This document shows, one piece after another, positions 14,472 to 48,955 of a stretch of 64,000 nt of DNA. The notes under the pieces were generated by a model. It was not told the DNA's origin. It saw only the letters and a program-made list of their open reading frames with translations, and did no database searches. The stretch is from Cymodocea nodosa (lineage: Eukaryota > Streptophyta > Magnoliopsida > Alismatales > Cymodoceaceae): the NCBI GenBank assembly GCA_036874045.1, contig CM072344.1, positions 4,374,501 through 4,438,500 on the forward strand, in the 5' to 3' direction. Positions within the stretch are counted from its first letter, which is position 1. Each line of letters opens with the position of its first letter. A program made the position numbers and the translations under genes.

Positions 14472-14499
14472 AATACATTGTAAGGTTTTTGCCATTATC

Positions 14500-14512: not shown

Positions 14513-14513
14513 T

Positions 14514-15964: not shown

Positions 15965-15990
15965 ACATCATCAAAACAAAATACTCAATA

Positions 15991-16278: not shown

Positions 16279-17058
16279 ATGAAATTGATGAAATTACCAC
16301 TGGATGCACTAAGGGAAGTACTAAGTAACCTATCAACTAGAGATCTATGCAGACTATGTTGTGTATCAAAAGAAATTAAAGACTATGTTAGAGAAAAATA
16401 TTTTCATAGACTACAAGCAGCAAAAATGACTAAGATTAGAGATGGATTTTTATGGAAGTCATTTAATCGTAGTTCAATCAGCTATGAATATCTAAATATG
16501 GAAGAAACTGTTGGAATTCCACCCAATACATTAGAAGGAATAGATCATATTATGGGGATAAATGAAGGATTAATTATTTACCGAACCAAACCAAGGTATG
16601 CAATTATGTTACCTGATATTTTGATTAGAAATCCTATCACTAGAGAAGAATGGAATATAGGAAGGCCTAATAGATTTGAAGTACCAACTAAAAATTGTAG
16701 GTCAGCTTTAATATTTTCTGATAAAAATTTGAACATTCCTGAAAAATTATATTATTAGAGACCAACTTAAAATTGGGATGAAGATTTATACTTAAGTGTG
16801 TATAATTTTCTGAATAGATTTTGGACTAAAAATACTATGATATATCTAGGACAGAAAGCATTAATTAACAGCATACATGTCATACTTGATGGATATATAT
16901 ATCTAGTCACAGATATATCAGTTGCATTTGGATCTAATTTATACATAGTAAGCATAGACAGTTATGATGATTTTATAGAAATATTACCTATACCGAGTGA
17001 TATAGCTAAACCACCATCTTCAAAATATGATCAAATTCAATTAGGAATGTGGTATAAT
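16279..17058 (+). pseudogene. F-box-like ORF region in Gypsy-old, 5' part
   Basis: Encodes an F-box motif at its start (LPLDALREVLSNLSTRDLCR, then CCVSKEIKDYV), which in host proteins binds SKP1 in SCF ubiquitin ligases. It continues with a block like F-box-associated repeats (GINEGLIIY-type, ILIRNPITREEWNIG). It is about 80-85% identical by eye to 28,345-29,193 on the other strand. Copia-3 inserted at 17,064, and a further short part of the same region lies at 23,979-24,132 and 40,977-41,160. It is part of the retroelement and broken; no host function is claimed. Confidence 0.8.
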
Positions 17059-17063
17059 GAATA

Positions 17064-17341
17064 TGTTGAGTATTTTGTTTTGATGATGTGTGCTGAATGA
17101 ATATAATCATATTTGCTCAATTACTATTGCTTGTGAAAAGAAATTAAAATCATCAATTAATACATAAAAAGCTTACTAGCATAAATACTTGTCTGTATTG
17201 GATCTGAAGTTAATAACTAGTCGTTTCGTTGCATTAATTTCTCATTTAACTAAATGTTAAGTTAACGTGTGTTTTTATTGAAAAGCATGATATGTTTTAA
17301 AGTTATATCTTCTGTATCATGAACAGTGCATGTTTAGACAT
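17064..17341 (+). repeat. Copia-3 5' LTR remnant
   Basis: Matches 22,225-22,501 at ~97%. Begins TGTTGAGTATTTTG next to the GAATA target duplication. Confidence 0.9.
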
Positions 17342-17370
17342 ATATATACAAGGAAAATTTTACTAAAAAT

Positions 17371-17880
17371 TTCGGACTGTATTATTCTAAGGATAGTTCA
17401 ATAGATCTTATAGGATATACTAATGCTGATTATGTAGGATCTAAATCTGATAGAAAGAGTACCAGTGGCATATGTCAATTATTGGGAAATAATTTGGTTT
17501 CATGGTTTAGTAAAAAGCAAAACTGTGTAGCACTTTCTACTACAGAAGCTGAATATGTTGCTGCTGCATTGTGTTGCACTCAAATTCTGTGGATAAGGCA
17601 AACTTTAGAAGATTTTGGATTATTTTATGATATAAATGAGATTTATTGTGACAGTAGTTCTGCAATAAATCTTTCCAAAAATCCTGTATTACATTCAAGA
17701 GCAAAACATATAGAGGTTAGACATCATTTTCTAAGAGATAACATAATTAAAGGAAAAATTAAATTAGAATTTGTGTCTAGTAAAAATCAATTAGCTGATA
17801 TATTTACAAAACCTCTAGACGAAAATACATTCTGCAACATTAGATTAAATTTAGGTATTTGTAGGCTATGTGATGTGTAA
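17371..17880 (+). pseudogene. Copia-3 RNase H region
   Basis: Copia RNase H: FGLYYS, GYTNADYVGSKSDRKSTSG, NLVSWFSKKQNCVALSTTEA, LCCTQILWIRQTLEDFG, YCDSSSAINLSKNPVLHSRA, KHIEVRHHFLRD and LADIFTKPLDE, ending RLCDV. It is related to, but distinct from, the Copia-2 copy. This is the only pol domain visible in the element. Fossil. Confidence 0.9.
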
Positions 17881-19472
17881 AATGCTTAAACTCCACATAA
17901 AAAGATAAATATTATTGATGATGTTATTCACCTCATAGATATTATATACTTATTATAAATATCTAAAGTAATATCTAAACTGCTACTTAAGATACTATGT
18001 ATTTATTGTAAAATCATAGTAGTATCTTATTGATTTTAAGTAGTTTATCAATTTTAATGGTTTTTACAATTTTAAGTGGAAGTGTAAATGAAAAACATTA
18101 AATACTTCTGACAATCTGAAATTTTGATTAAATGTTTTCTTTGAATCAAGGAAAATGCATATGATCATGCATAAATTTGACTTAATTGATTAAACTTGTA
18201 GAATAAGTTATATGTAACTCATCTTAAACTGTTAATCAAAAGTATAAGCTTATTGAAACTGATTCATATTCTCAGTACAATCATAGAAGTAAAAATTGTA
18301 TGAGATTTGTGTTTTATTACATCTGTATTAATGGAATACATATATACTGTGCTTAAAATGAAAAGTGCTTACAAAGTGAAAATCTTTGAGAGTTTATTGA
18401 TCAGTTTGATCACGAGCCTTTTGTACTTGAGCAGATAGGTATGTAAGGATTGTTGTCCTGAAAAAGGATTTTTTAAATCTGGCAACCTAAGGTCCTAATC
18501 AGATCTAGGATTGTTGACTGAAAGCTCATTACATGGGTACATTAGAAAGCTCTTGTATGATTCAAGCTTTTCAAACTAACTTTTAAAGAAAATTATCAAT
18601 ATTCACTATTTTGAAAAAAAAATAAAAAATAAAAAATGTTGTTTCATTAATTACAGATATCTTTGAATCACATATAGTTTCTACCAATATGACTACTGAT
18701 TTATTGAATCAACATTAGTACCTTTGAAAACGTTTATTTGAGATACATTCTTTTATTCTCCTTGAATTAATCACATTGAGTTCACAGTTATGTCTTGATT
18801 CATATACAGTAGGAATTGATTCTGGAAATCATTTTTGATGTTGTCAGGATAACGGAAGTCTCTAAAAAGAAAATTTAAAAGTATAGTTATACTTAACATC
18901 TATTGTCACTACAAATATATTTTGTATTTTGATTGAATATATTTGAAGTATATTTGTAGGGGGAGGATTAACAATGTCGAAAATAGATTAATATAATTTA
19001 GAATACAAGTCTTAGTTAATGTCCTCTTAAAATATTGATGAAATAATTAAAAAGGACATACAAACTATTTTAGATTCAAAGGACAAAATGTTCAAATAGT
19101 TTAAAATGTTCTCAAGATAATGTTAAGTTTAGCATGTGTGTTATTTTTGGAACGTTTCAGTTGGAAGCATCTGTAAATTGTTTTAAGTGTACTAACTAGA
19201 CATTATGTTAAATAAGGTAACGTGTAAAACTGCCTCTAGACAGCGTTTTACTCGTTAGGTTAGTTAACTCAACAAGTTATACTTGAATATTTCGGGCACT
19301 TCGATTGAATAAATTTTATTCAATATTTATTTAATTTTTAAACCCGACTTCTCTTCACGTTGAGTTATACACCTAAAAACCCTATTTAAACACTTATTAC
19401 ACGAACACTTAAGTTATTTGTAAACTTTGTCAAAAAAATCTTTCCTGCTTGTTGTTGTTACAACCTGCGACG
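17881..19472 (+). repeat. Copia-3 noncoding block shared with Gypsy elements
   Basis: About 18,100-18,960 aligns with Gypsy-old ~47,960-48,790 and Gypsy-young ~27,400-26,450 (reverse). The best-kept part is 18,384-18,590, around GATAGGTATGTAAGGATTG and CATGGGTACATTAGAAAGC. From ~19,250 a TATTTAAAC box and A/T-rich leader precede the first envelope-like frame. No gene seen. Confidence 0.8.
19382..19391 (+). promoter_or_regulatory. Candidate internal promoter box upstream of envelope-like ORF
   Basis: CTATTTAAAC lies ~80-90 bp before the ATG at 19,473, after AAAAACC. A similar CTTATTTAAAC, near AAACC, lies upstream of the envelope-like frame of Gypsy-young (33,565-33,575, minus). Role inferred only. 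Confidence 0.35.
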
Positions 19473-21488
19473 ATGGTCTCCAAGTTCTACAAAGGTTGTT
19501 GCAGAGGAAAAGGCAAAAGCAGAGGAGATGCAAAAGGAAAAGAAATAGAGAATGATGAAGTTCCACGTACTTGGTTCAAGAAAATCTTTCGAGTGGACAA
19601 AAGGTTAGCAGAAATTTATAGTGAATATTTCTTTCTTGAAGGTATACTAAATGAAGTTAGACAAGAACTCCGAAATACTGATGCTAGTATTACATACATG
19701 GGGATTCGAAGTAAATTTGCTAGAGAATACAGAATGAAATGTGCTGAGATTGCATTTTTGGAACAATATGCAAAATATTTGGAAAAAGATGTAGGTTCAT
19801 CAAATAGAACTCCTCAAACTCCTATAAACGGTACAAGACTACATGCATTTAAGGAAGAGCATGAATCAGCTATTCCTACTCCTTTATATTCAAAACAAGT
19901 AGAATCAAATATTGCTATTGACAAAACAAAAGATGATAGTCTTCAAAAGGCCGTTGCAATAGAAAGTGCCTTAGAAGAATTAAAGTAGAAAACTTTTATA
20001 GAGCAATCTAAAAAAAAAACAACAATACTTGAAGAGGAGAAACAGAAATGTTATAGAAGAAGGAAAGTCAGAAAAATTATGTCTAAGGAAAAAAAGTCTA
20101 TTGGAAAAGGACAATCAGATGAAAATTTATTTCCAAAGGACAATGTATGTCTAGACATTGTACCGTATTGGGCATCTGATAAACTCATCAGTTCCGAACA
20201 CATTGAAACTAATGAAGATAATGAGACTTTATTTTCCCTTGCTAGAAAGCTTGAGAAGAAATACAAGTCAAATATGAGCTCAAGTTTTTCTATTAGTACA
20301 AGTCTTGATGATGCAGAAATTGACAAATCAGAGCATCAGGCACCTGACATTGAATAAGTTATTGCAGATATAATTGACAATGTTGAGGTAGTAACTAGTT
20401 CACAGGTTGAATTGTCTAGAGTAGCAGATATTGAAAATGGTAAGACTCCAGAAGAGCTAAAAATTAACCAGCCTTCTTTAGAATCTATAGAAGTAGAGTC
20501 TAAGAATTCACAGCATGAATCAATGGAAATATCTGTTGAACAGAATGAACAATTACAAACAGATACACCGGCTGTAGAATTTATGGAAAAATTGAACTCT
20601 GAACATTCTATAGAGACTAAACAGATGAATGTTGAGCATATTGACAATGTTCCTAACACTGTTGAAGCTGAAGAATCAAGCTTACCTGAGCAGCTTCAAG
20701 ATAATATTTTGGAAGAGGAACAACATGACATTCATTTTGAAGTTCCTGAAGATGAATTAAACTCTGAATCACAGCTTCAGGTATCACCTTCTTTGTGTAC
20801 AATATTACAAATTCAAGGCAATACAATTCATTTTAGATCTGAAGAAGCATTGCAGAAATAAAATAATCTGATTACATGTCAGATTCTGCATGCTCGTCCA
20901 ATAAAATTTAGAAATTTGATGCAAATAAGTGATCTGTTTGAGTTTCAAGGCCTCATTAAATTCTTGCTAGAAGGAACGAAATGGAAGCAATACACAAAGC
21001 TTATTATAACTTTTTATAGCGATTTGGTCAAGAATGGAAATTTTCTGAAAACTCAAATAAATGAACAGGAGTTTATATTATCTCCTGAGTTAATTTTTGA
21101 CATTTTAGGATTAAAGAATGACGGTGTTGTTGTTACAAATAGATTTGACATGATAAGACAACTAGAATGGAACATTCAGTCTTTATCAAAAATTCTAGAT
21201 GTATATTCTGAAATGAGATTAATGGAAAATTTGAATGTAGAGGCAATGTTTATTGTAAATATATTGCATGCAAATTTATTTCAAAGAGTTAGACACAATT
21301 TGGAAGTCAACAAAAGCTGTTTATATGCAACTTATGGCCTACTGAATAGAATTCAAATAAATTGGTTTGATGTTTTTATGTCTCAACTACAGCATATGAG
21401 TTCAAAGTTATTTTATGGTGATGCTGTATGTAGAATCCTTACAAGCCAATTGATTTATCCGATTGGCCCTCAGAAACTAAAGGCATGA
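19473..21488 (+). pseudogene. Copia-3 envelope-like (plant transposon protein domain) region
   Basis: Three reading-frame stretches: 19,473-19,988 (basic start MVSKFYKGCCRGKGKSRG, then a charged helical part), an acidic Glu/Ser-rich stretch to 20,861, and 20,916-21,488. The last has LFEFQGLIKFL, a FYSDLV motif, SPELIFDILGLKNDGVVV and RIQINWFDVF, and LFYGD. It resembles Gypsy-young 31,827-32,846 at LFEFQGL, ELL-IFGLNN, IQINW and LFYGD. The domain looks like the putative plant transposon protein domain found in the extra ORF of some LTR elements. Its function is unknown. A Gln-rich tail follows to ~21,610. Fossil with a few breaks. Confidence 0.75.
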
Positions 21489-21906
21489 GAGCATTTAGTG
21501 TTAAGATTTGCAAAAATTCCAAGCCATGCATAAACCTTAACGACAACATCAACAACAACCTGATTATACAGACCATATACAACAACAAAGTTATTCAGTT
21601 CAAGTAGAACAGCAAACCTAGCTACCTCCTGACTTAGATGCAGTGCTTAACGACATTAGAAATGATATTGGCATCTAGGAGATAAAATATGTAATGCTAT
21701 AAGTGATATACTTAGGAGTGGTCGATAACAGTTTTTGTTTATTTCTGAATACAAAATGTAATGTTTGTATTACTTATTTGATTCATTGAACAATACATTT
21801 TTCTATAAAAATGTTCAATTATTATTCTAGTTTACAGAAAGAGTTGTTGTAATTATATCTCGTATATATATATATATTCTTTGTAATTATCTTTTTGATT
21901 AATGAC

Positions 21907-21920
21907 AAAAAGGGGGAGAA
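21907..21920 (+). other. Copia-3 upstream polypurine-like tract
   Basis: AAAAAGGGGGAGAA about 300 bp before the true tract, as in Copia-2. Multiple tracts are a Sirevirus trait. Confidence 0.7.
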
Positions 21921-22210
21921 ATATTATAAAAATGATTATGATCTTAATTGCATATATATATTATAAAAGGAGATGTTATTTAAATGGTTATTGTAATCTG
22001 ACAGATGATAATTAGAACATTGATACTTATATAATTAATGACATCTGAGAGTTTTATTTCTGAGAGGTAAAATTTACACAAACAATAGAAATAAGCTTAA
22101 GTGAACTTAAGTCAATAAACAAGTTTGTTGAATTAAAAGTTAACCCAACGAAGGTGCTTTGTTGAGTTAAACATATTTCATAATTGATTTAATATGATTT
22201 TGTCATCATC

Positions 22211-22223
22211 AAAAAGGGGGAGA
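22211..22223 (+). other. Copia-3 polypurine tract
   Basis: AAAAAGGGGGAGA directly before the 3' LTR, preceded by TGTCATCATC, the standard Sirevirus form. Confidence 0.9.
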
Positions 22224-22224
22224 T

Positions 22225-23973
22225 TGTTGAGTATTTTGTTTTAATGATGTGTGCTGAATGAATATAATCATATTTGCTCAATTACTATTGCTTGTGAAAA
22301 GAAATTAAAATCATCAATTAATACAGAAAAAGCTTACTAGCATAAATACTTATCTGTATTAGATCTGAAGTTAATAACTAGTCGTTTCGTTGCATTAATT
22401 TCTCATTTAACTAAATGTTAAGTTAACATGTGTTTTTATTGAAAAGTATGATATGTTTTAAAGTTATATCTTCTGTATCATGAACAGTGCACGTTTAGAC
22501 AACTCGTTAAGTTAGAGTTTTGTTTGTATAGAGGTCACGTGAGAACTCGTTAAGTTAGAGGCTTAAAGGTTAAAATAGGTCGCATGATAACTCATTAAGT
22601 TAGTGAGTAAAAGAAGAGACGAACTCGTTAAGTTAGTGTTATATACGTGGTGAAATTATAAGTTACGAATGTTGTATTGTATCATGTGAGGTGTACATGT
22701 TTAACTCGTTAAGTTAACATAACTAAATGCGTTGAGTTGCTATATTGAACACTAAGGCAACACGTTACGTTAGCGTTATAAACTTAAGTTGTTATTTTTT
22801 TGCACGTGGTAAAATTCTTATTATAAAAACATTTGTTTATGACTGAATCGGTGAGTTAAAGTTTTTTCGGAGACTTACAGTCGTAACTATCCGAAAGGTA
22901 ACTTAAGTCATGATTTTAGGTCTTGACACATGTCTCACTAGTTTTATGATATAAAGAGCTTTTCGGTGACTTACAACTGTAACTATCCGAAACTTAAACT
23001 GTTTTCAGTGAGTTATCGTTTAACCTTCTGAAAGAAAGGTTAAGCTGGTTCATTGAGTTAGCATAACACCACAGACTTAGTTCGTTGAGTTAGCTACAGT
23101 ACTTGTCACGTGAAATGGCACATGAGGAACTCGTTAAGTTAGAAACATTAAGTTATATATATATATACTTGTGTTACTCGTTTAGTTAACATTAAATTAA
23201 CGACTTCGTATTACACTTGATGGAAAATTCTTTGGATGAGAAAGTTTATTTTGTAGGAAATTTTTCAGAGATCCAGGACTAATGATTAAAGAAAATTTGA
23301 AATATAAACGTGGGTTAGAATGTGTGTGTTTTGATGAAGGAAAAAGAAAAGACGTGGAGAAGTGGAAAACTAGTAGTGGTTAAACATGAAGGATATGCAT
23401 GAAATGAAGAAAAATATAAAAGGCATAGAATTCTCGTTGATCAAACTATCCTTGCATATAAAACGAAAAATCTTTTCAAGGATCAAACTATCCCTGCACA
23501 CCAAAAGAAAAATCTTTTTCAAGGATCAAAAACACCTTCTCGGGGAAAATCTCTCAAGTGAAAGAAAATTCAGTGAAGCAGAAAAAGGTATTATATATGT
23601 CGCTGAAGTATCAGAAGAAAGCAAATTCAATGAAGTAGAGAAAGACAAGATATTCATCACTGAAGAATTGCTGAAGAAGAAAAAGAAGAAGAAGAAAGAT
23701 CTCAAATAGGGAGAAATGTTTTAAATTCAGCAAATTAGTTTTCTCTGTTTGTAGTTATGAAATTGTTTAGATGATACATGGTATCGAGATATAATTGCAT
23801 CTATAATTTCTAAGGAGAATTGAATTGTATATTGTAATTGAAACCTTGAATAAAAATGATTTTATGAAAACAATATCTCGACTTGTTTTTGAGTTTTAAA
23901 GTTTCAATTATATGTCAGAAAATATTAAAAATACACAATTCACCCCCGTCTTGTGTAGCCATACGATCCTACA
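22225..23973 (+). repeat. Copia-3 3' LTR
   Basis: 1,749 bp, TGTTGAG...CCTACA. It holds repeats of CTCGTTAAGTTAG (~22,500-22,720), hairpin cassettes with AACTTAAGTCA (~22,845-23,050), a TATATATATATA run near 23,158, and two ~44 bp tandem units starting GATCAAACTATCC near 23,440 and 23,484. A Lys-rich open frame at 23,386-23,709 lies inside this LTR and is not taken as a gene. Confidence 0.9.
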
Positions 23974-24132
23974 GAATATGATGATCCTACTTTATGTTTG
24001 AAAAGATGGTGAGATGAATTGAGGAAATATGGATTATGAAAGATCTAAATGAATGGAAGTGGGAAGAAGAATATATTGAAATAGATGTAGAAATAGAAAT
24101 AGCTAGATTATCTTGGAACAGAAGAGGATCCC

Positions 24133-26289
24133 TGTTTGGATTTTCCCAACACTACACTAGAAAAACCTTGATTTTTTACTTCTAGTTTACTTAATTAATT
24201 TATCTTTATGCCTATTCTTTCTTTTAGAAGTAAACAAACAACCTTTAATACAATTTAGATATAAATTCCAATTTGTACTTTAACTGCAAGTGCACAGTGT
24301 CTATTGTATCAGTGTGCAAGTACAGGTCGATCCCACAGGGAATTGCTGACGAATTTCAGAACTGTTCGTTTGTTAACAATCAAATTTATATATTTAATAA
24401 GCTCTCCGTTGACTTATAGTTAACTCAACGGACTAAGTTCGTTGAGTTATGGCTAACTCAACAGACTAACCGCGTGGACTTAAGTTAACTCCACGAGCTT
24501 GACTTTTCTTTTTAATACTGCTATTTATAGAGGAATTCGGCCAACCATTGGACGATTCCACAAATTGTAAATAACATCAATTAAGCTCCTTAATGCTAGT
24601 TAACATTGGATTTATCATTAAGCAATACTAACATTCAGATAATTCAAATAGTAACCATTAAAATCTTTAAGCCTTTTGAACGAACCAATTTTAGTAAACT
24701 GTAAAACTAAAATAAACCTAAAACAATCACAACACTGACAAAGATAACATTAATCACGATACAATACAAACAATACAACACTCAATTACAACATACAAAC
24801 ATAGATAACTTGTTTTTGGTATTTTTGTTTTAATATGAACATGGAAATGGGCGATAGGTGAAATGTAAAGTAATCTCACTTGACATTAAATACTTCCGAC
24901 ACTACTTGCAACACGATTACACCATTGAAAATTAAACCACTTACAATTTTGTCTCCTCTACCTATAGAATCGCGAGTCCAGAATTGCAAGATGTTCTCCT
25001 CTTCAGCATACAGGCATCAACCTGAAGCCAAGGTTAAAAGCTTTACGATCTCCTGAAATATGAGTCGACGCTTGGTGAAAATGGCTTCCCTTCATGCGAC
25101 GTGATCACTCCTCACAATGGTTGTCAGACACTGTGTTTGGCTCGGAATCAACCAGACATCAGGCAAGTATCCTCACAGACCTCCGATGGTTGGTGATTAT
25201 GGTGGTGATGATGGTGGTGATGATGGTTGGTGTGGTACTTCAGAGAATTGCGACATCGATCCTCCTCTACACACATTGTCCTTCCATCGATCACACACTG
25301 ATCACACCTTTCCTTTTTTATTCTTTTCTTTTATATTTCTTCAGTAGTAACTACTTCTGCTTGAATGGTCAATTGGATTTCCTTCATTCATATCAACTGT
25401 GATGATTTCTTTCCCTACGCAATACGTGCAAACGTGGTTTTTCTCTTCCAACTATCTGTTCCTGCAACTGCTACAGTGGCATATTAGAAAATATATAGTC
25501 CGTAGAGTTACAGATAACTCAACGGACTTTCTTCGTTGATTTAACTATAAAATACGTGCATAAATTTAACTATCCGATGCTCAGGTGCATTTCGGATAGT
25601 TACAGCTAACTCACCGATATATAACTTAAGTAAATCTACCAGATCTCAACACATGTCAGCAGTAGTTTAATCATAAAATAACATTTTGGAGAGTTACAGG
25701 TCTAACTATCCAATGCTTAGATGCATTTCAGATAGTTACAGCTAACTCACCGAAAATCCACTTAAGTCAATTTCCCAGAACATGACACGTGTCCTCAGCT
25801 ATTTTATAAAATAAAAAGAGATTTCGGAAAGTTACAAGGATAACTATCCGATGCCTAGTTGCAATTTCAGATAGTTATAGATAACTCACTGAAATTTCAC
25901 TTAAGTCATTCATTATGGTTTTGACATGTGTACTTCAGGAAATAATAAAATATTCTCTTAAAACATAACTGTTCGGCAATTTAAACATAACTATCCGATA
26001 CATATTCTGTCTGTTAAACATAACTGTCCGAATTTGTTCGGTATGTTAAACATAACTGTCTGAAATATCAAAAAATTTAGATACTTAAGAATTTCATAGC
26101 CTGCAACTTATCGACAGTTCATAAATGTACTAAATTAACATTAATTCCCCCAAATTAAGCAAATTCTTCAATTAAAGCATATAATAGTGCAATTATATCA
26201 TAATGGCTTAATTCTTATATGATAAGCTAAAAGTTATGCAATTAACCATCATTTAACCGTTAATAATATGCACTTTTTCATTCTAAACA
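24133..26289 (-). repeat. Gypsy-young 3' LTR
   Basis: Mate of 38,815-40,971 and same length. TATA-like AATATAAAAG (minus) at 25,328-25,337; hairpin/G-box cassettes ~25,490-26,110; CTGCAAGTGCACAGTG motif ~24,286. Confidence 0.93.
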
Positions 26290-26301
26290 CTTCCCCCATA
26301 C
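26290..26301 (-). other. Gypsy-young polypurine tract
   Basis: On the minus strand TATGGGGGAAG sits directly before the LTR start. The same motif precedes the Gypsy-old LTR at 48,944-48,955. Confidence 0.88.
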
Positions 26302-28053: not shown

Positions 28054-29193
28054 TTAAGAATATGATTGAAAAGTAGAAACAAATGGAATAAATGTATCGG
28101 TCCAAGCAAACTTTTTAGGCATAGTTCTTCTTACTATTAATTCTATTTTAATGCAATTTTTGTTCCTTTTTAATTTGTAAACATGCAATATATTATAAAT
28201 TCCAAATACGAGTGTATTACCATTAATGATATGTAATGCAGAAAGGGATCCTTTTTTATTCCAAGGTAATGTAGCAATTTCTATTTCTACATCTATTTCA
28301 ATATACTCCTCTTCCCACTTCCATTCATTCATGTCTTCCATAATTCATATTTGAAATTTCATCAGTTCATCCCACCATCTTATCAAACATAAAGTAGGAT
28401 CATCTTCTTCATTATACCACATTCCTATTTGAATTTCATTAAATTCTGTAGATGGTGGTTTAGCTATTTCACTCGGTACAGGTAAAATTTCTATATAATC
28501 TTCATAACTGTCTATGCTCACTATGTATAAATCAGATCTATATGTTATTGATATCTTAGTGACTAAATAGATATATCCATCAAGTATAACATGTGTTTGG
28601 TTAATTAATGATTTCTGTCCTAGATATATTATAATGTTTTCATTCCAAGATCTGTTTAGAAAATTATACACACTTAAGCATAAATCTTCACCCCAATTTC
28701 CTGTAGGTCTCCAATAATATAATTTTTCAGGAATTGCAGAATTTTTATTAGAAAATATTAAAGCTGACCCACAATTTACAGTTGGTGCTTCAAATCTATT
28801 AGGTCTTCCTATATTCCATTCTTCTCCTGTTATAGGATTTCTTATCAAAATATCAGGTAATAATAAACTTGCATACCTTGGTCTCGTCTTGTATATGATT
28901 AATCCTTCATCTATCCCCATAATATGATTTATACCTTCTAATGCATTGGGTGGAATTCCAGTAGTTTCTTCCATAGCCAGATATTCATGGGTATTTGAAC
29001 TACGATTAAATGACCTCCATATGAATCCATCTCTAATCTTAGTCATTTTTGCAGTTTGTAGTCCTTGAAAATATTTTTCTTCAATACAATCTTTAATTTC
29101 CTTTGATACACAACACAGCCTGCACAGATCTTTAGCTGACAAGTTACTTAGTACTTCCCTTAGTGCATCCAACGGTAATTGCATCAATTCCAT
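28054..29193 (-). pseudogene. F-box-like ORF region in Gypsy-young (captured host-type gene)
   Basis: Starts MELMQLPLDALREVLSNLSA, followed by KDLCRLCCVSKEIKDC, a clear F-box of the SKP1-binding kind. The rest looks like an F-box-associated propeller: GIDEGLIIYKTRPRYA, ILIRNPITGEEWNIGRP, YYWRPTGNW, ILDGYIYLVT and, near the end, WKWEEEYIEIDVEIEI and LVRRTMPKKFAW. The nearly open region is striking next to the heavily broken pol; it has about one interruption. Copies in both Gypsy elements show it travels with the family. In plants such proteins select targets for ubiquitination; a role here is unproven. An alternative is a chance late capture shared through an ancestor of both copies. Confidence 0.8.
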
Positions 29194-30727
29194 TTGTCGA
29201 TTCTGTAAAACACAAACAAAAATTTAGCAGAGACAAAAATTAGCATAACTACTGCACACCCTCGTGGAGTTAAGGCATAACTCAACGGACTAAGTTCATT
29301 GAGTTAAAAATTAACTCTACAATACTATTAACTAAAAATTAAAAAAACATATATACATACAGATAGTTGCTTCAGATATGCTGCTTCATTTAGCTGCCCT
29401 CCCAGAAGAGGTATCAATTTCATTAACCGTTCTATTGATAGGATTAGGTATAGCTTGTATTGGCAATCCTCCAGTAGGTCTAACTTCCATTGGTTCCTTC
29501 TGTCTAAGTGATATATTTCAATTCTGATTTTGAATTGCAGCATTTCCAAATATAAATTCTAGACGATTATTTACTTGTTGGATTATCTTTTCTAATTTCT
29601 CTATTCTAGCTCCTTGTTCAATTAATACTTCATAACTTATGTTCTTCTCATTTATATTTTCTCCTCCCTAGAAATTGTTGTTTCTCCAAGATAAATTCGA
29701 GTGATTTCTCCAATTAGGATGATAAGAATTTCCCAAGTTCTCTTTGGTTTCTAGCATAAATAATATCTAAGTCATTTATGTTTGCATTCTTTTCTGCTAG
29801 CTTTTGATTTAATGATAACTCTTCTATTTTCTTTGTTAATTCATTTAATTTCACCTCAAGCATAGTATTGGAATTTATTTCATGCATTCCTCTTGGCAAT
29901 ATTTTTTTATCTACAATAGCTTCAACCGAATTTTCCCACTATGTAGTTCTTTTTGCAAAATTTTCTAAATATGCCCATGCTTCTTCACTACATAATTTTA
30001 AAAATCCATTTTGACAAGTAGATTCTAATAAAGATTTCGTTGAAACATCTATTCCTTCATAGATTATACCTATTAATTGTGCTTTACTCATTGCATGATG
30101 TGGACATTGAGTCAGTAAATCTTTAAATCTTTCAAAATATTTCTAGAATGATTCACCCTATTTTTGGCTACACATTAATATTTCTTTCTTCTTTTTAATC
30201 GTTTGATGTGTTGGATAATATTTTTTCAGAAAAAGAGAGCAAAATTCAGTCCATGTAGAAATTGAATCAGGTGACATAGTATATAACCATCTCTTAGCTG
30301 TGTCTTTTAAAGAAAAAGGGATATATCTAAGTTTAATAGCATCTATACTCATGTTCAGCATTTTCATCATTTGACAAACTTCGTTAAATTCTCTAAGGAA
30401 ATAATAGGCATCCTCTCTTTCTAATCCATGAAAATGTGGCAATTGACTAATATAATTAGATTTTAGTTCAAACTTATCTCCCTCAAAGTTTGGCAATCGA
30501 ATACATGAAGGTTCATCAATTAATTCAGGATACAGAATCTCTCCTAATGGTTTTTCTACTAGAGCAGCCATCTCTACGTTCTCTTTTAAAGAAATGTTAG
30601 ATACACCCCAAAGAATTTTGTTAAAGTTCAGTTTAGAAAATTTTCCAGTATGCCTCAGTGTTGAATATTCTTGGGTAGGTGTTCTTACTAATCGTTTAGT
30701 GCTAGGAGAACGGGTCCATGTGCTCAT
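29194..30727 (-). pseudogene. Gypsy-young gag core region, placed after the envelope-like ORF
   Basis: Athila-type gag. The start holds ILYPELIDEPSCIRLPNFEG, LPHFHGLEREDAYYFLREF, IPFSLKDTAKRWLYTMSP and WTEFCSLFLKKYYP, the classic retrotransposon gag core. Further on are the ESF-KYFERFKDLL-type block, CPHHAMSK and, near 29,700, a WRNHSNLSW motif seen in Athila gag tails, then a VNEIDTSSGRAAK-type end. Its position downstream of pol and the envelope-like ORF is not the usual Gypsy order, where gag follows the primer site. Fossil with several breaks. The last ~170 bp before the F-box frame are spacer with GAGTTA/TAACTC motifs. Confidence 0.82.
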
Positions 30728-31672
30728 AAATAAATAACAGAAGATTAATTACATACCAGTCTAAATCTTTCCATTCAATAAATATTTGTTGTCGGATGAA
30801 GTTGAATCAGCTGCTTCTCCTTCCAAGTCCTCCAACACCTTCTCCTTTCTTTTAAAAGTGCTGGTAACTTGTAAATAATATTCTATTTCATATATATACT
30901 ACACATTCATAAAGTGAATAAATCTCGTTGCAAGAACGTGTCTTGCAACGTGCATCGTGGTTCCTATTTTTATGGGTACGTGTACCACTACTCATTTCAA
31001 ATTTTGGTAACCGCTAAACTGACGAAGTTTCGTTCGTGGTTAAAAGAATAACCGTTCTGCTTAATCCACGAACTAACCTCATTGAGTTACAAAAAACTCA
31101 ACAGAATACAGTCGGTTACTTTTGCTAACTCCACAAACTAACTTCGTTGAATTACAGATAACTCAACGAAGTGACCTTATATTATATTACTGACCTTGTG
31201 GAGTTACATTTAACTCAACGGACTTACTTCATTGAATTAACACTTGGCAACTTCTAAGTTTTACTCTCGTAAGCTCTTTTCTATTTTTTTTTTTCTTTGT
31301 CTTTCTACTAACTGTAATAAAGTTAAATCTATGTCATTAATGCATCATTTTGATTAAAATTCATTTAAATCTAAATCTTATATAGAGATTTAACTTGTAG
31401 GTCATTTTATGTTATGCAGAATTTACATTTTACCTTATAATATGCAGAAATTTTTAAGCAGTTATCCTATCATTCAGCAAATTGTAAATCTATTACATAT
31501 TCATTCATAAAGTTCCACAATAACATAATATTCAATATATTCCATTCATTTCACATCCAAACACGTATGAAAATTGCATCTGAAAAATTATATTCATTAA
31601 TATGAATCAATTACATTACAAGTACATCATACAATTTCATACAATTTCACACAAGTAGACGAACAATACAAT
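30728..31672 (-). repeat. Gypsy-young spacer between envelope-like ORF and gag core
   Basis: AT-rich, no convincing gene. It holds several ACTCAACGGA / TCCGTTGAGT-type motifs (31,015-31,245), the same short motif that fills the Gypsy LTRs. Confidence 0.7.
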
Positions 31673-33540
31673 TTAATCTCTATGACTAAGTTCATCTACT
31701 TCCTTCTGGAGTTTTTCTAATTGCTGCTCTAATTGATTTATCCTTTCTACTGCTCCCGAAATTCCTCTAGAAGGTACAGCTAGTTCTGCAACTACAAAAT
31801 TCCTATATTCTTTCACTGAAATGGTTCTAAATCCTTTTTGATGTCCATTTCGTGAAATCAATACAGTCCACCATCAGCAATGGAATCAAATCTCCATAAA
31901 ATAATTTCTTCTTCACTGTTTTCAGCTTGGAGATAAAAACTGCAGACCAATTTATTTGGATCTTATTTACAACTGCATACGTGGCCCATTTGACAAATTG
32001 ACTTAATTCTATGTCATGGCCCTGTCGTTGATAGACATTCTTAATCAGAATGTTAGCTACCATGTGTGCTTTACCATTTAAATGCTTCAATCTATTTAAT
32101 AATGGTACACCAGGATTGATAGCTAAACAATCCTTAATTTGCTGCTTAGTCCATTCAACTGCAGTTGTATCTTCCAAAATTATTGTTCCTTCATTGTTTA
32201 AACCAAAAATGTTGTGGAGAAGCTCTGGTGTTATCTGTACATCAGCTTCCTCCACGCTTGAAATTAATCCTCCTTCTCCTTCTATTAAATTTGCATAGAA
32301 ACAATGCACTAAATTCTCATATACTACATGCCCTCTTTCTTGAGATATAAATTGCAGTAGACCTTGGAATTCAAATAATTCTTTGATTTCTTGCATTCCA
32401 TCCCAATTTACTGGTCTATTGTAAATAATATCGTAACCCCTTATTTCTTGATATTTAGTATAAGCTTCCTGACTACTAAAGTGTACTTCATTTAAAATTG
32501 TTGTTTCAGTCGGGTCAGAAAGGTGACTTTGTTGTTCCAGAAGGGTTTGTACTTGATCCTCCTCTAACATAGGCTGCATTTGAACATTCTCTTCAGATTC
32601 CTGAATTTTTGCTTTTGCTTCTGTCTGTGGTGGTGAGCTGGCAGAACTCTCCACTCTGTCTTGAATTCTTTCCATAATTTGCTGAAGAGTTTTTTGCTCT
32701 TTAGTGGAATTTGTGAAATTATTTTTGTCCAAATGGCTTCTTTCAGCCTCTTCATTTTCTGCTCTTTCTTGTTCCTCCTGACTACCAATCTGTTCTGTTA
32801 CTATTCTTTCTAATTTTGTAACAGATTGGGATGGAGTCACAGGCAATTCAGTTTCTGCCCTACTTTCTATTTCTTCTTGTACAAGCTGCAGACTAATTTT
32901 AGCCTGATTTTCTTCTTGTCTTTGCTCCTCCTACTCCTCCTCAGAATCGGATAGCAAGTTAATAAAAATCTGCTCTACAGGCCTTGTAAAAATTGGTACT
33001 TCAGATTTAATTTCCTCATATTCAGGCACTTTTTCTTTTCCTTTCCTTTTTCTGATTAGTTGTGCCTATTCTTCCTCTTCATCTTCTGAAATTAAATCCA
33101 CAAAAATAGGCTTTGTAGGCCTTCGAGCCACAGGTACTAACTCTTCCTGTTTAATTCTTCCAATAATTCTTGGTCTTGAAGGACCAGCTTCATCTCCTTT
33201 TGCAGCAGGTTTGGCAGCAGTTCTAGCAGTAGCTTCGTGATGTTATTCCACTTTGATTTTATATTGGGCTTTCAACTTTTCTACAGCCCTCTTTTTGTAA
33301 AGTGCATAAAACACTAGGTGTGCTTTAGCCACTGCCAAATCTTCTAATTCTCCTTGGTTCTTCCCAACTTGAACCAGTTCTGCAAATTCTCTTATTTCTT
33401 CTTCAGTTGAAGGCCCCATCATTTCTGCTTGTGCCAACAGCTTAAATGGTGGAACTAAAGGTCCTAACTGCTGTTCCTCAAAAATAGGTCTTTCAGTAGT
33501 CGTCTCCTCCTGTTCTAGATTCTAAATGATTTACCGGATA
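31673..33540 (-). pseudogene. Gypsy-young envelope-like (plant transposon protein domain) region
   Basis: The N-terminal part (~33,437-32,560) is Glu/Gln-rich and charged. The core (~32,450-31,900) has YTKYQEIRGYDIIYNRPVNW, ELFEFQGLLQFI, a FYANLIEGE motif, TPELLHNIFGLNNEGTIIL, VANILIKNVYQRQGHD, ATYAVVNKIQINWSAVF and KKLFYGD. A short coiled-coil-like tail (INQLEQQLEKLQKEVDEL, ~31,690-31,750) follows. It matches the putative plant transposon protein domain and the Copia-3 ORF. In Athila-type elements the ORF after integrase is called envelope-like, but I see no clear signal peptide or membrane segment. Fossil with some breaks. Confidence 0.8.
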
Positions 33541-34061: not shown

Positions 34062-35160
34062 CTAAATAAAGCTCGAGTAGTCCTCTACTCTGACTTCTTC
34101 AATAATTCCAAAGGAGCTTTTTGGTATTTTCAGAATAGGTTTCAGTCTTTGTCCATTTACTTTAAATATATTCTGATTTCTAGGATTTTCAATTTCAATA
34201 GCTCCATAAGGATAAATATTTCGAACTATGTAAGGTCCTGCCCATCTAGATCTTAATTTTCCTAGATGGTTATGGAGTCTAGCCATATAAAGATATACTT
34301 CTTGTCCTATTTCAAAGCTTTTAGGAAAAAATTTTCTATCATGCCAAAATTTAATTTTCTCTTTTTCTCTTACATTACTCAAATAAGCTTCATTTCTAAA
34401 TTCTTCTAATTCAATTACTTGCATTTTTCTATTTTCAGCAGCTTGATTTAAATTAGTGTTTAGAGTTTTTAATACCCAATAAGCTTTATGTTCTATTTCA
34501 GTAGGTAAATGACAACTTTTTCCATATACTAGCCTAAAAGGTGACATACCTAAGCTTGTTTTATAAGCAGTTCTATAAGCCCAAAGTGCATCTATCAATC
34601 TATTAGCCCAATCTGTTCTAGTAGGATTTACTACTTTTTCCAAAATTAATTTAATTTGTTTGTTTGCACATTCTACTTGTCCACTTGTTTGCGGATGATA
34701 TGATGTTGCAATTTTGTGGTTTACTCCATATTTCTTCATTAAGGCTTCAAAACTTCTACTACAAAAATGAGTTACTCTATCACTGATAATAGCTTTAGGT
34801 ATTCCAAATCTGGCAAATATATTTGTTCTTATAAATTGTATTACCACTTTGTTATCATTAGTTTTTGTAGGAATAGCTTCTATCCATTTAGAGATGTAAT
34901 CCACCCCCAACAATATATAATTAAATTGATTAGACATAGGAAATGGACCCATAAAATCTATTCCCCACACATCAAAGATTTCAACCTCAACAATAGGATT
35001 AAGAGGCATCATATTCCTCTTTGATATTCTTCCTATTTGTTGACATCTTAAACAACTTAAGCAATATTTATGAGCATCTTTGAATAGTGTTGGCCAATAA
35101 AACCGACATTGCAGAATTTTTGCAGCAGTTTTCCTTGAACCAAAATGCCCTCCACAAGCT
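34062..35160 (-). pseudogene. Gypsy-young integrase region
   Basis: The HHCC zinc-binding part is at ~35,160-35,020 (H...[12 protein letters not shown]). The catalytic core has [45 protein letters not shown] and [20 protein letters not shown], with typical D, D and E positions. Then come [39 protein letters not shown] and the C-terminal [16 protein letters not shown] and VNGQRLKPI block. These are typical of Athila-type Gypsy integrases. Mostly open from 35,012 to 34,062. Fossil because the element as a whole is broken. Confidence 0.92.
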
Positions 35161-35300
35161 TAGTCATGATAGAAAGACAATATGCTCAGATATTCAGTTT
35201 CTAGAACACACCTCCTTAAAACCAGATCAGAACATTTCTTAAATAAGTATGGGTCTTCCCAATCGTAGTATTTTACTCTTAAAAAAAATAATTTCTTATC

Positions 35301-36530
35301 CTATCTATTCCAATCCTTAGGTGTTAAACCAGTAACTAAGTAATTAACTATGTCTGCGTACCAAGGCATTGTGTTAATGGTCATTAATTGTTCATCAGGA
35401 AAATTATCCTTAATTTCAATATTTGATTTTTCTATTTGTAATCTTGATAAATGATCTGCTACTACATTCTCACAACCTTTTTTATCTTTAATTTCTAGAT
35501 CAAATTCTTGTAATAATAATATCCATCGGATCAATCTAGGTTTAGTTTCTTTTTTCTTTATTAGATGTTTTAGAGCTGAATGATCCGTGTATACTATTAC
35601 TTTAGTTCCAATCAGATATGATCTAAACTTTTCTAAAGCAAACACAACAGCTAATAATTCTTTTTCAATAGTTGTGTAATTAACTTGAGCATCATTTAAG
35701 GTTTTGCTTGCATAATGAATCACTCTAGGAGATTTTTCTATTTTCTGTCCCAACATTGCTCCTATAGCAAAATCAAAAGCATCGCACATTAATTCAAATG
35801 GATAGTTCTAATCAGGTGCTTGAATTATAGGAGTTGAAATTAAACTAGTTTTAAGTCTGAAAAATGCCTCTTTGCAATTTTTATCAAAGTTAAATGGGAC
35901 ATCTTTTAATAGATTAGTTAAAGGCCTAGCTATCTTGCTAAAGTCTTTAATAAATCTTCTATAAAAACCAGCATGTCCTAGAAATGATCTAATATCTTTT
36001 ACTGATTTAGGTTCAGGTAGATTAGAAATTACTTCTATTTTAGCTTTATCTACTTCCAACCCTTTCTTAGAAACAACATGCCCTAAGACTATTTCTTGTT
36101 TAACCATGAAGTGACATTTTTCCCAATTTAAAACCAGATTTTTTTCCACACAGCGTTTTAATATTTAGTCTAAATTGCTTAAACACACTTCATATGAGTT
36201 GCCATACACAGTAAAATCATCCATAAATATTTCTAAAAAATCTTCAGTCATTCCAGTAAATATGCCCTACACACACCTTTGAAAGGTAGCTGGCGCATTA
36301 CATAATTTGAATGGCATTCTTTTAAAAGCATAAGTTCTACTAGAATAGGTGAAAGTTGTTTTCTCTTGATCCTCTAATGCTACTAGAATTTGATTATACC
36401 TTGAATACCTGTCTAGGAAACAAAAATATTTTTGCCTTGCTAATCTTTCCAGCATTTGATCTATAAAAGGTAAGGAAAAATGATCTTTACTAGTCACAAC
36501 ATTCAGCTTTCTATAGTCTATACATACTCT
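35301..36530 (-). pseudogene. Gypsy-young reverse transcriptase and RNase H region
   Basis: RT blocks: KDHFSLPFIDQMLERLA and FCFLDRYSRYNQI, then FKLCNAPATFQRCV, a YDSHEVC-like stretch, CHFMVKQEIVLGHVVSKKG, DVRSFLGHAGFYRRFIKDFS and PLTNLLKD. RNase [55 protein letters not shown] and [10 protein letters not shown], ending with VVADHLSRL. These spellings are those of Athila/Gypsy pol. Fossil with several breaks. Confidence 0.92.
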
Positions 36531-37850
36531 TCAGCCTGATTGAATTCTAGTAGGTATCAAGTCTTGACTTTCATTCCTAATAACTGTTAATCCTGATTTC
36601 TTGGGAACTACATGGATTGGACTAACCCACGAGCTATCAGAAATTGGATAAATTATATCATTATCTAACCATTTAACTATTTCTTTCCTGACTACTTCTT
36701 TAAGGTTTGGATTTAATCTCCTCTCAGGAATTCTAACAGGTTTAGCATACTCTTCTAAATATATGTGGTGACAGCATAAAGTTGAACTTAACCCTTTTAT
36801 ATCAGTCATAGTCCATCCTATTGCTTCTTTATAACTTTTTACTACATCTTTTAATTTAGCTATTTGATCCTCTTTTAAATCTAAAGCAATAATGATTGGA
36901 CATGTTCGTTTTTCTTCCAGAAATATATAGGTTAATTCAGGAGGTAAAGGTTTTAATTCTAAATGTTGCCCATCAGAAGCTAGAGCTCCTAACTGAACAT
37001 CATCATTTTTTAAATTAATTTCTTCCATATCTCCTTCTATATTTATGCTTTCACTTTCTTCTAAAATTTCAGAATTGATTTGCCTATTTAATTCTTCTTG
37101 AATCACATCATCTAACATATCTCCTTCATCCTCTAAAAAGTCTATGGTGTGTAAGGACATTTCTAACTCTTCAAACCTTTCTGGTTTGAAAATATTTAAT
37201 TGAGTATCCTCATTACCATATGCTAACTTCATTACTCCAATTTTACAATTTATAACAGCCCCTGATGTTGTTAAAAATGGTCTTCCCAAAATTAAAGATG
37301 TATCACTATTTTTATGTTTAATTTGTTGGGAATCCAAAATTACAATATCAATAGGATATATAAAATTCTTGATTTTAATTAAGACATCCTCTATTTTTCC
37401 TCTAGGGTATCTTATACTTCTATCAACTAATTGAATAACCGTACTAGTAGGAGTTAAGCCTTCTAATTCTAAGGATGCAAATATATCACTTGGCATAACA
37501 TTTATACCTGCACCTAAGTCTATTAAGGTTCTTTCTAGAATGGTATTTCCTATTGTGCATGATATAATAGGGATTCCATGATCAAATAACTTTTTAGGAA
37601 TTTGTGGCAGAAATAAGGAACTACTTTGCTCAGCTAAAAAGACCTTTCTAAGAACTTTTCACTCTCTTTTCTTAGTACGCCAATCCTTAAGAAATTTAGC
37701 ACAAGGTGGCATTTTCTGCAATAGATCTAACAAAGGAATGTTAACTTGTACTTTTTCAAAAATTTCTCTGATTTTCTCTTGTCTTTCAAGTATTGTTTGT
37801 TGTAATCTTTCAGGATAGGGTGCTAAAGATTTTGATTTCAAAGACTCTTT
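36531..37850 (-). pseudogene. Gypsy-young protease region and pol start
   Basis: Near 37,841-37,659 is YPERLQQTILERQEKIREIF followed by KMPPCAKFLKDWRTKKRE, the standard Athila stretch before protease. The protease core shows the SLEGLTPTSTVIQLVDRS-type block, GKIEDVLIKI, ILGRPFLTTSGAVINC and KLAYGNE. Past it, an acidic linker leads into ELKPLPPELTYIFLEE and CPIIIALDLKEDQIAKL, then PERRLNPNLKEVVRKEIVKWLDNDIIYPISDSSWVSPIHVVPKKSG (start of RT). Fossil with some breaks. Confidence 0.88.
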
Positions 37851-38168
37851 TTCTTTCAGTTGATTTGTTTGATCATTTTTAGCTTCATTCGCATATTCAA
37901 ATTATTCTTCAGTGATTTCTAGATTTTCAGCTATATTTTCATTATCATTTTGATTTTTACTCTTATCCACCTTTATATCATTTTCATTTTGAGTTCTTAG
38001 TGATATATCAGTTCCAAATCTTAATGTTACACATACATCTTCTAGATTTTCGTTACTTTCATAATGTTTCTGTATATCATTTTCGTGATTATGATCTTCA
38101 ATTGTTTTTAGTTTTAAAGTACATTCTTTAAATTCTCTTGCATTAGTATTTTCTATTTGCTGTATATT

Positions 38169-38729
38169 TTACAAATTATGTAGGTTTATAGCATTATAAT
38201 TTTCATTGTCCTGTTGCATAACTTGTATTTTCATTGCATTTTCGTCTAATGCTTTTAATTTTGTTTCCAAATCATCTAATTTCATTGCAATCAATTTTTG
38301 ATCAATTTTCTTTATGGTTTTTTCAGTTTCATAAATTATATCCTTTTTAAGTTCTGAATATGATTCCTTATAATTTAATTGGTTGACTTCTTGTTGCTGA
38401 CACATAAAGTATTCTAGTTTGTCAAGATTTTGCTCTATACTATGCTCCAGTCTGTCATAGCTATCCCAAACTTCAGTGTCTCTCATCATATTACACATTC
38501 TATACTGACCATCAATTGGGTAAACTATAGGATTCTCATACTCGACTCTATTATATTGAGGATAATTTATTTGTTGTTCATGGGATCTAGCAATCTGTAA
38601 GTGTCTCAACTTCAAACAATCAGAAATGTCGTGTCCTTTAGAATTGCAGAATTCACATATGCAAATTACAAGTTTCAGAAATCTTTGAGCATAAGCATAT
38701 GCCATATTCTCAATTACAGAAGAAAACAT
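38169..38729 (-). pseudogene. Zinc-knuckle ORF next to the Gypsy-young primer site
   Basis: A 186-residue stretch beginning ~65 bp after the primer site. It has one CCHC-like knuckle, CEFCNSKGHDISDC, then HEQQINYPQYN, and a long charged part likely to form a coiled coil (KKIDQKLIAMKLDDLETKLK). This looks like only the nucleic-acid-binding tail of a gag; the capsid-type core is instead at 29,194-30,727. The stretch 37,850-38,168 after it is acidic and degenerate. Fossil. Confidence 0.7.
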
Positions 38730-38789
38730 ACAACTCTGGCTATTAAAATGAAACAGCTCTAACAGTTGCTTATATCAATTCAATTCAAT

Positions 38790-38807
38790 TCCCCGGCAAC
38801 GGCGCCA
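38790..38807 (-). other. Gypsy-young primer-binding site
   Basis: On the minus strand TGGCGCCGTTGCCGGGGA follows the LTR end after a few bases. This is the usual primer site of Athila/Tat-type plant Gypsy elements. Confidence 0.9.
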
Positions 38808-38814
38808 AAAAACT

Positions 38815-40971
38815 TGTTTGGATTTTCCCAACACTACACTAGAAAAACTTGGATTTGTTACTTCTATTTTACTTAATTAATTTATCTTTATGCCTAATCT
38901 TTCTTTTAGAAGTAAACAAACAACCTTTAATACAATTTAGATATTAATTCAAATTTGTACTTTAACTGCAAGTGCACAGTCTATTGTATCAGTGTACAAG
39001 TACAGGTCGATCCCATAGGGAATTGCTGATGAATTTGACAACTGTTCGTTTGTTAACAATCAAATTTATATATTAAATAAGCTCTCCGTTAACTTACAGT
39101 TAACTCAATGGACTAAGTTCATTGAGTTATGGCTAACTCAACAGACTAACCTCGTGGACTTAAGTTAACTCCACAAGCCTGACTTTTCTTTTTAATACTG
39201 CTATTTACAAAGGAATTCGGCCAACCATTGGGTGATTCCACAAATTGTAAATAACATCAATTAAGCTCTTTAATGCTAGTTAACATTAGATTTATCATTA
39301 AGCAATACTAACATTTAGATAATTCAAACAGTAACCATTAAAATCTTTAAGTCTTTTGAACGAACCAAGTTCAGTAAACTGTAAAACTAAAATAAACCTA
39401 AAACAATCACAACACTAACAAAGATAACATTAATCACGATACAATACAAACAATACAACACTCAATTACAACATACAAACATAGATAAATTGTTTTTGGT
39501 ATTTTTGTTTTAATATGAACATGGAAATGGGCGATAGGTGAAATGTAAAGTAATCTCACTTGACAGTAAATACTTCCGACACTACTTACAACGCGATTAC
39601 ACCACTGAAAATTAAACCACTTACAATTCTGTCTCCTCTCCCTATAGAATCACAAGTCTAGAATTGCGAGATGATCTCCTCTTCACTATACAAGCATCAA
39701 CCCGAAGCTAAGGCTAAAAGCTTTACGATCTCTTGAAATATATGAGTCGACGCTTGGTGAAAATGGCTTCCCTTCCCGCGACGCGATCACTTTTCACAAT
39801 GGTTGTCAAGCACTGTGTTTGACTCGGAATCAACCCGACATCAGGCAAGTATCCTCACAGACCTCTGATGGTTGGTGATTATGGTGGTGATGATGGTAGT
39901 GATGATGGTTGGTGTGGTACTTCAGAGAATTGCGACACCGATCCTCCTCTACACACACTGTCCTTCCATCGATCACACACCGATCACACCTTTCCTTTTT
40001 TTATTCTTTTCTTTTATATTTCTTTAGTAGTAACTGCTTCTACTTGAATGGTCGGTTGGATTTCCTTCATTCATATCAACGGTGATGATTTCTTTCCCTG
40101 CGCGATACGTGCAAACGTGGTTTTTCTCTTCCAACTATCTGTTCCTACAACTGCTAAAGTGGGATATTAGAAAATATATAGTCTGTGGAGTTACAAATAA
40201 CTCAACGGACTTTCTTCATTGATTTAACTATAAAATACGTGCATAAATTTAACTATCCGATGCTTAGGTGCATTTCGAATAGTTACAGCTAACTCACTGA
40301 TATATAACTTATGTAAATCTATCAGATCTCAACACGTGTCAGCAGTAGTTTAATCATAAAATAATATTTCGGAGAGTTACAGGTCTAACTATCCGATGCT
40401 CAAATGCATTTCGAATAGTTATAGCTAACTCACCGAAAATCCACTTAAGTCAATTTTCCAGAACATGACATGTGTCCTCAACTATTTTATAAAATAAAAA
40501 GAGATTTCGGAAAGTTACAAGGATAACTATCCGATGCCCAACTGCAATTTCAGATAGTTATAGATAACTCACCGAAATTTCACTTAAGTCATTCATTATG
40601 GTTTCGACACGTGTACTTCAGGAAATAATAAAATATTCTCTCAAAACATAACTGTTCGGCAATTTAAACATAATTATCTGATACATATTCAGTCTGTTAA
40701 ACATAACTGTCCAAATTTGTTCGGTATGTTAAATATAACTGTCCGAAATATCAAAAAATTTAGATACTTAAGAATTTCATAGCCTGCAACTTACCGACAG
40801 TTCATATATGTACTAAATTAACATTAATTCCCCAAATTAAGCAAATTCTTCAATTAAAGCATATAATAGTGCAATTATATCATAATGGCTTAATTCTTAT
40901 ATGATAAGCTAAAAGTTATACAATTAACCATCATTTAACCGTTAATAATATGCACTTTTTCATTCTAAACA
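38815..40971 (-). repeat. Gypsy-young 5' LTR
   Basis: Mate of 24,133-26,289. AATATAAAAG (minus) at 40,011-40,020 is kept in all four LTR copies of this family here. Hairpin/G-box cassettes lie at ~40,180-40,790. Confidence 0.93.
40011..40020 (-). promoter_or_regulatory. Candidate TATA box of the Gypsy LTR
   Basis: AATATAAAAG downstream (in element sense) of the hairpin array. The same 10-mer is at 13,494-13,503, 25,328-25,337 and 49,853-49,862. Confidence 0.6.
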
Positions 40972-41526
40972 ATCCATTTCTACATTTCATTTCATTAATG
41001 GTAATACACTTATATTTAGTATTGATAACATACTACAAGTTTACGAGCTAAAAAGGAAAGCAAACTGCATTAAAACAGAATTAATAGTAAGAAGAATTAT
41101 GCCTAAAAAGTTTGCTTGGACTAACACGTTTATTCCATTTGTTACTACTTTTTAATTATATCCTTAAACTATGATTTTGTGCATTTAATGTTGTGTGTAT
41201 TCTGCATTTACTTTTAGAAAAAAAGAGAAAAGGAAGAAAAATTTTAGTTTTAGTTTTATTTTATAAGAAAAGAAAAATAAAATATCAATCCAGTTTGTTG
41301 GTATCTGTTTTGGGAAACCAACTAGCTTGCTTGTGAGCCACCAAAGGCATAGGAGCCTAGGTTTTACATAAGACACTGATTTAACAAGTTATGTTTTGTT
41401 ATGTTGTTATATATTGTGCTTTTATTTGTGAATGAAAAGTTTTTCAGAATAAAAAATTGGAAGATATTGAAGGAGATACAAAAGGACAAGGTATGTAATT
41501 GATTACTTATCTTGAATTTACATTTA

Positions 41527-47000: not shown

Positions 47001-47009
47001 TGGTAGTGG

Positions 47010-48943: not shown

Positions 48944-48955
48944 ATGGGGGAAGTG
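48944..48955 (+). other. Gypsy-old polypurine tract
   Basis: GTATGGGGGAAG directly before the LTR start at 48,956. Confidence 0.85.

Follow-up and report, generated by a model that had tools for sequence, protein, structure and literature searches.

An F-box gene between pol and the 3' LTR in two members of an Athila-like Ty3/gypsy retrotransposon family

Introduction

The additional open reading frames of plant LTR retrotransposons (aORFs or eORFs) include sense ORFs between pol and the 3' LTR, such as the env-like ORF of Athila, which occur in more than one copy, as does the gene described here. Most of these additional ORFs have no known domain, whereas the present ORF has an F-box of host type (PMC7264820, PMC6317226). 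Neumann et al. 2019 report 3372 gypsy elements with extra ORFs that reach 250 codons or more, and 21.4% of the extra ORF proteins resemble any known domain (PMC6317226). The fixation of a host regulatory domain as a second ORF has a precedent in the Ty3/gypsy elements of Phalaenopsis orchids, whose AlkB ORF has been suggested to counter host control, with the difference that it encodes a demethylase domain and that its carriers are relatives of Ogre/Tat (PMC9289625). The giant Burro gypsy elements of planarians have likewise taken up domains tied to ubiquitination and apoptosis, but these are MATH, BIR and other domains in animal hosts, and the term “F-box” has no occurrence in that text (PMC6431247). 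Host coding sequence between LTRs is also found in LTR elements with captured genes, which differ in that the genes are reported as captured ones and not as the fixed gene of one family, and here too the main text has no occurrence of “F-box” (PMC3726574). An F-box “LTR-gene” of Thlaspi is mentioned as one gene of a host family (PMC8764390). Among plant viruses, the polerovirus P0 and the nanovirus Clink are the viruses' own F-box or F-box-like proteins and bind SKP1-type proteins, P0 being a suppressor of RNA silencing (PMC3588083, PMC6593998), with autophagy contributing to the loss of AGO1 (PMC6593998). They belong, however, to exogenous viruses, P0 has an F-box-like motif, and the likeness to the protein of the element is drawn here at the level of description.

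The term “F-box” does not occur in the main texts (supplements aside) of PMC7264820, PMC11963269, PMC9289625 and PMC6317226, the last of which has a supplementary domain table that may hold one, and the main text of the 2025 Retand survey is without it as well. The survey of additional domains in the LTR elements of 121 plant genomes names 15 domains in its main text and covers 5 kb on each side of the reverse transcriptase (RT) (PMC9289625). In the element described below, 6.6 kb separate the ATG of the F-box gene from the point where the RT pieces end, so that this survey probably would have missed it, and the gene points to a blind spot of a search limited to 5 kb around RT. Among the open-licence PMC papers listed in literature searches, none announces, in its title or at the start of its abstract, an F-box gene that belongs to an LTR retrotransposon family. 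Within the texts searched, a host domain as an extra ORF of gypsy elements is already known, and an F-box as such an ORF is new.

Architecture of the young element

Two related elements, here called young and old, were found in the window, that is, the whole stretch of 64,000 nucleotides that was analysed (Table 1). The young one is an Athila-like Ty3/gypsy element extending over 24133-40971. It has the hallmarks of this superfamily, namely two LTRs, a primer site, a polypurine tract and a target duplication whose two sides agree at 4 of 5 bases. The order protease-RT-RNase H-integrase is that of Ty3/gypsy according to the Pfam matches, of which that of the protease (E 0.005) falls under the Pfam cut-off, and the zinc-knuckle-like stretch ahead of the protease was judged by eye, Pfam giving only E 0.2. 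The primer site TGGCGCCGTTGCCGG, for which 0.01 matches with at most two mismatches are expected by chance, has a motif that we take to be of the tRNA-Asp type, and Athila uses a primer site of this type. There is neither a second RNase H, as in Tat, nor a chromodomain among the Pfam matches, three short stretches of the pol frame having lain outside the search and the broken frames being able to hide one. The label Athila-like is based on this absence in the pieces searched and on the primer site, rather than on an RT tree. A gag ahead of pol, as in Athila, was not found in the young copy, where the sole capsid-type gag match is downstream of pol, and the element is for this reason called Athila-like and not Athila.

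Table 1. Positions of the features of the young element, the old element and the insertion between them (window coordinates)
Feature	Position	Strand	Basis or remark
F-box gene, young element	28054..29193	-	PF00646 E 1.6e-10; frame and final stop
F-box domain proper	29071..29184	-	Pfam, residues 14-51 of the stop-to-stop frame starting at 29223
Candidate 3' splice site	29203..29226	-	T-rich tract then CAG, 9 bases before the F-box ATG
3' LTR, young element, TG...CA	24133..26289	-	94.5% identical to 38815-40971 (window self-comparison)
5' LTR, young element	38815..40971	-	window self-comparison
Primer binding site TGGCGCCGTTGCCGG	38793..38807	-	exact match, adjoins 5' LTR
Polypurine tract adjoining young 3' LTR	26290..26300	-	motif recurs at 48943-48959, old element
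Target-site duplication, young element	left 24128..24132 ATCCC; right 40972..40976 ATCCA		4/5 bases alike
Zinc-knuckle-like region, protease, RT, RNase H, integrase	34065..38774	-	one frame, 9 stops
Extra ORF between integrase and gag fragment	31830..32930	-	open for 367 codons, no Pfam match
Gag capsid-type fragment after pol	29331..30748	-	PF03732 E 2.4e-08 for 30158-30748
Old F-box gene, piece 1	16279..17063	+	PF00646 E 3.5e-10; 86.7% identical to young
Old F-box gene, piece 2, between both insertions	23979..24132	+	84.4% identical to young
Old F-box gene, piece 3, to final stop common with young	40972..41167	+	84.4% identical
LTR element (copia type by eye) in old F-box gene	17064..23973	+	window self-comparison
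3' end of old element: conserved non-coding stretch, polypurine tract, 3' LTR	47566..50995	+	

In the coding direction, pol (38774-34065) is followed by the extra ORF, the gag fragment (three stops in 344 codons, then a frame change), the F-box gene, conserved non-coding stretches and the 3' LTR, which places the F-box gene between the gag capsid fragment and the 3' LTR. At the other end, the 5' LTR and primer site lead almost at once into the zinc-knuckle-like stretch and the protease (38774-34065, minus strand), with gag only at 30748-29331. Such a position of gag, seen here in one copy, is unusual for a gypsy element of any kind: either gag moved in the family or this copy is a recombinant. 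The long non-coding stretch before the 3' LTR (27698-26290) has its counterpart at 47560-48953 in the old element, with a substitution identity of 0.899 and 33 indel events, and is perhaps a packaging or regulatory region.

The F-box gene and its two copies

The span originally predicted to be an F-box-like gene coincides exactly with a minus-strand frame of the young element running from 29193 to 28054, which comprises 379 codons and the final stop and is interrupted by a single internal stop at 28345-28347. The predicted F-box at its start is real: PF00646 matches the young copy with 40.9 bits (E 1.6e-10), about twice the curated cut-off of 20.5, and the old copy with 39.8 bits against the same cut-off (E 3.5e-10). 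The longest open stretch of the young frame is 282 codons, the maximum in 2000 base shuffles being 138. The F-box-associated (FBA) body that had also been predicted is unproven, since no Pfam model, FBA and kelch included, matched the body after the F-box of either copy at E 1, and with regard to the substrate-binding domains FBA, kelch, LRR and WD40 the body pieces had no Pfam match at this threshold. The predicted fold of the protein has a mean pLDDT of 31.6, too low for interpretation.

The same region had been proposed in the old element, and there it is indeed, with the F-box in the piece at 16279-17063 and the rest in the pieces that follow. The old gene lies in three pieces because two elements have inserted into it. 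The first, judged by eye to be of copia type (its frame 17338-17880 has no Pfam match), is flanked by the exact target duplication GAATA at 17059-17063 and 23974-23978. The second is the young element itself, whose insertion point corresponds to about 28245 of its own F-box gene, and after which the old gene resumes at 40972 and ends at 41165-41167 with the same final stop codon as the young copy. As the insertion point of the young element falls within the old F-box gene, the two copies are separate insertions of two family members. The two LTRs of the young element are 94.5% identical to each other, whereas their blastn pieces match the old 3' LTR at 77-84%. Immediately ahead of the gene, too, the sequence is common to both copies (84.6% identity over 253 aligned sites). 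In both of the two members whose corresponding region lies within the 64,000-nt window, the gene occupies the same place and strand within the element. These observations support the F-box gene being an internal part of an Athila-like gypsy family, and in this respect the original prediction of an F-box gene carried along by the family stands, in contrast to its argument that the gene is better preserved than pol, which fails (see Selection and decay). Of the results that had been named as refuting the prediction, the lack of an F-box match and a descent of both copies from one local duplication did not occur.

Regarding its expression, the gene has the layout of an accessory gene, with its own ATG and its own stop downstream of pol. 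Of the 942 AG sites of the internal region 111 are CAG, and among these the candidate acceptor just before the ATG has the most T-rich tract; a TAG site at 29332 surpasses it. In the old copy the T-rich tract is kept and the acceptor AG is absent. The site supports a predicted spliced message for the young copy only. A spliced message has been reported for the env-like ORF of the barley element Bagy2 (PMC7264820).

Searches for relatives

A word-based search of the F-box protein against 5.8 billion proteins yielded 196 candidates, none of them at E 0.001, and the two copies aligned as one query yielded 2810 candidates from the same database, none at E 10. The integrase of the young element served as a control: of its 7978 scored candidates, 7444 matched at E 0.001, and the matches listed include entries named as plants, Malus, Vitis and Tanacetum among them, so plants are covered by the database. 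Such a search finds only relatives that have exact 5-residue words in common with the query and a similar length. No parent gene emerged from these protein searches: either the gene is fast-evolving, or it comes from a poorly sampled lineage, or its homologues are beyond a word-based search. Viral contigs contained no relative of the F-box protein and none of the integrase. Two further matches were rejected, one to a solved structure (E 0.82, meaningless) and one in NCBIfam, where the F-box of the old copy hit a family of bacterial F-box proteins (E 0.064, chance level); NCBIfam gave nothing for the young copy.

Proposed function of the F-box protein

Small RNAs and DNA methylation are the means by which plants suppress LTR elements, and few elements are known to counter this suppression. 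An F-box binds SKP1, and the substrate to which the remainder of the protein is bound is brought to a CUL1 ubiquitin ligase. What could a retrotransposon gain from such a protein? In the scenario that we propose, an Athila-like Ty3/gypsy lineage would have acquired a host-type F-box gene, placed between pol and the 3' LTR, and maintained it in the role of an accessory gene. The protein would be made from the element's RNA, perhaps via a spliced message, its F-box would bind the plant's SKP1, and whatever protein is held by its C-terminal body would be ubiquitinated to the benefit of the element. Taken as a whole, an accessory gene of host type, kept by the lineage and encoding an adaptor of an SCF ubiquitin ligase that benefits the element, is in our view the best explanation and on balance a probable one.

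The likeliest class of target would be a host factor that limits the element, through small-RNA or chromatin silencing, the alternative being the element's own Gag. A silencing factor would be the target that pays the element best, and the target, be it such a factor or another, is something that we infer. The most specific version, in which an SCF adaptor encoded by the element and expressed in the manner of a retroviral accessory gene destroys a silencing or restriction factor of the host, as a transposon counterpart of the polerovirus P0, is speculative and, as it stands, rather unlikely. Possible, although still on the unlikely side, is that the protein acts instead on proteins of the element itself, or on the cell cycle or development, as has been proposed for Clink: F-box proteins have many targets, and Clink itself is described as an F-box protein that binds both SKP1 and retinoblastoma proteins (PMC3588083). 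If the reading as an SCF adaptor is true, an F-box adaptor encoded by a retrotransposon would be a tool to find host proteins that limit transposition, since the substrate of the adaptor can be captured, and one more host function would join those that plant retroelements have adopted.

Selection and decay

A further reading does without any function: a fragment of a host F-box gene would have been transduced once and copied along in the subfamily as passive cargo. The capture of genes by LTR elements is well known, and many such genes decay (PMC3726574). Both copies are now broken, the young one by its single stop, which is absent from the old copy, and the old one by indels and by four separate stops ahead of the shared final one, the last of these at a distance of just four codons from the end. 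The stops of the young copy fit a neutral decay since insertion. With 0.0525 substitutions per site between the two LTRs, half of it per copy, 1.6 stops are expected in the F-box gene and one is seen, and 6.3 are expected in the pol frame and nine are seen; the extra ORF at 31830-32930 has none. Probably, then, the F-box gene and pol were both still intact, or almost, when the young element inserted, and since that time their decay has kept to about the expected rate. The claim that the gene is almost open while pol is heavily broken is thus no evidence for a special maintenance, given that both stop counts are close to expectation. Also in line with passive cargo, the substitution identity of the gene (0.868) does not exceed the values of 0.880 and 0.899 measured in the two non-coding stretches downstream, where gaps absorb differences.

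Against it stand the same frame kept over most of the gene, the few indels and the deficit of differences at second codon positions, all of this despite a clear divergence. The comparison of synonymous and nonsynonymous differences that had been suggested gave a dS of 0.279, a dN of 0.110 and a pooled dN/dS of 0.395 (bootstrap 0.27-0.59) over a set of 377 codons from which six with a stop, the shared final stop included, were dropped. Frame-shifted controls gave 0.445 and 1.05, and the number of codons with a stop rose from six to 44 and 55, respectively; since the frame shifted by one is also low (0.445), the dN/dS is weak when taken alone, and the open frame is not. Differences between the copies at codon positions 1, 2 and 3 number 56, 34 and 59 at 376, 376 and 377 sites, respectively, a second-position deficit with p 0.014. 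Furthermore, the gene shows 6 indel events over 1129 aligned sites versus 53 in 1925 adjacent, mostly non-coding sites (p 7e-6), the adjacent non-coding sequence being rich in simple tracts that raise its indel rate. The few indels, the second-position deficit and the dN/dS of about 0.40 lend moderate support to a past purifying selection on the F-box protein, as far as can be read from two sequences. Much of the divergence between the copies may have arisen after both had died, which would dilute any signal of selection. With these points on both sides, a passive passenger appears to us an unlikely account.

Far less credible still is a local artefact, be it one duplication in the region or a host F-box gene around which elements inserted, because both copies do lie within 25 kb but on opposite strands, they have flanks in common (the stretch before the ATG, the downstream stretches, the polypurine tract and the LTR), and the young copy belongs to a complete element that is nested with its own target duplication inside the old gene, by which the local duplication is rejected.

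Surrounding insertions

The two parts of the old element are also separated by the stretch 41520-47565, perhaps a DNA transposon, with minus-strand ORFs at 43065-43580 and 43865-44470. The left part of the old element lies outside the view, and in 1-15989 there are nested LTR pairs (71-443 with 5183-5555, and 6003-7458 with 14513-15965), the latter of which encloses a gypsy solo LTR at 12337-14472 that has no bearing on the F-box question. The copia-type element and the young gypsy element have a non-coding stretch in common (18152-18960 and 27264-26430, 71% over 853 aligned columns), and the copia-type ORF at 20862-21485 is homologous to the young extra ORF at 32930-31830 (32% identity), in an order different from that of the gypsy element; an exchange of modules between superfamilies or a nested remnant are possible origins of these pieces. 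The decamer CGTTGAGTTA occurs at 15 places between 12627 and 50779, with 0.11 expected, and sits in the LTRs and untranslated parts of both gypsy and copia-type elements.
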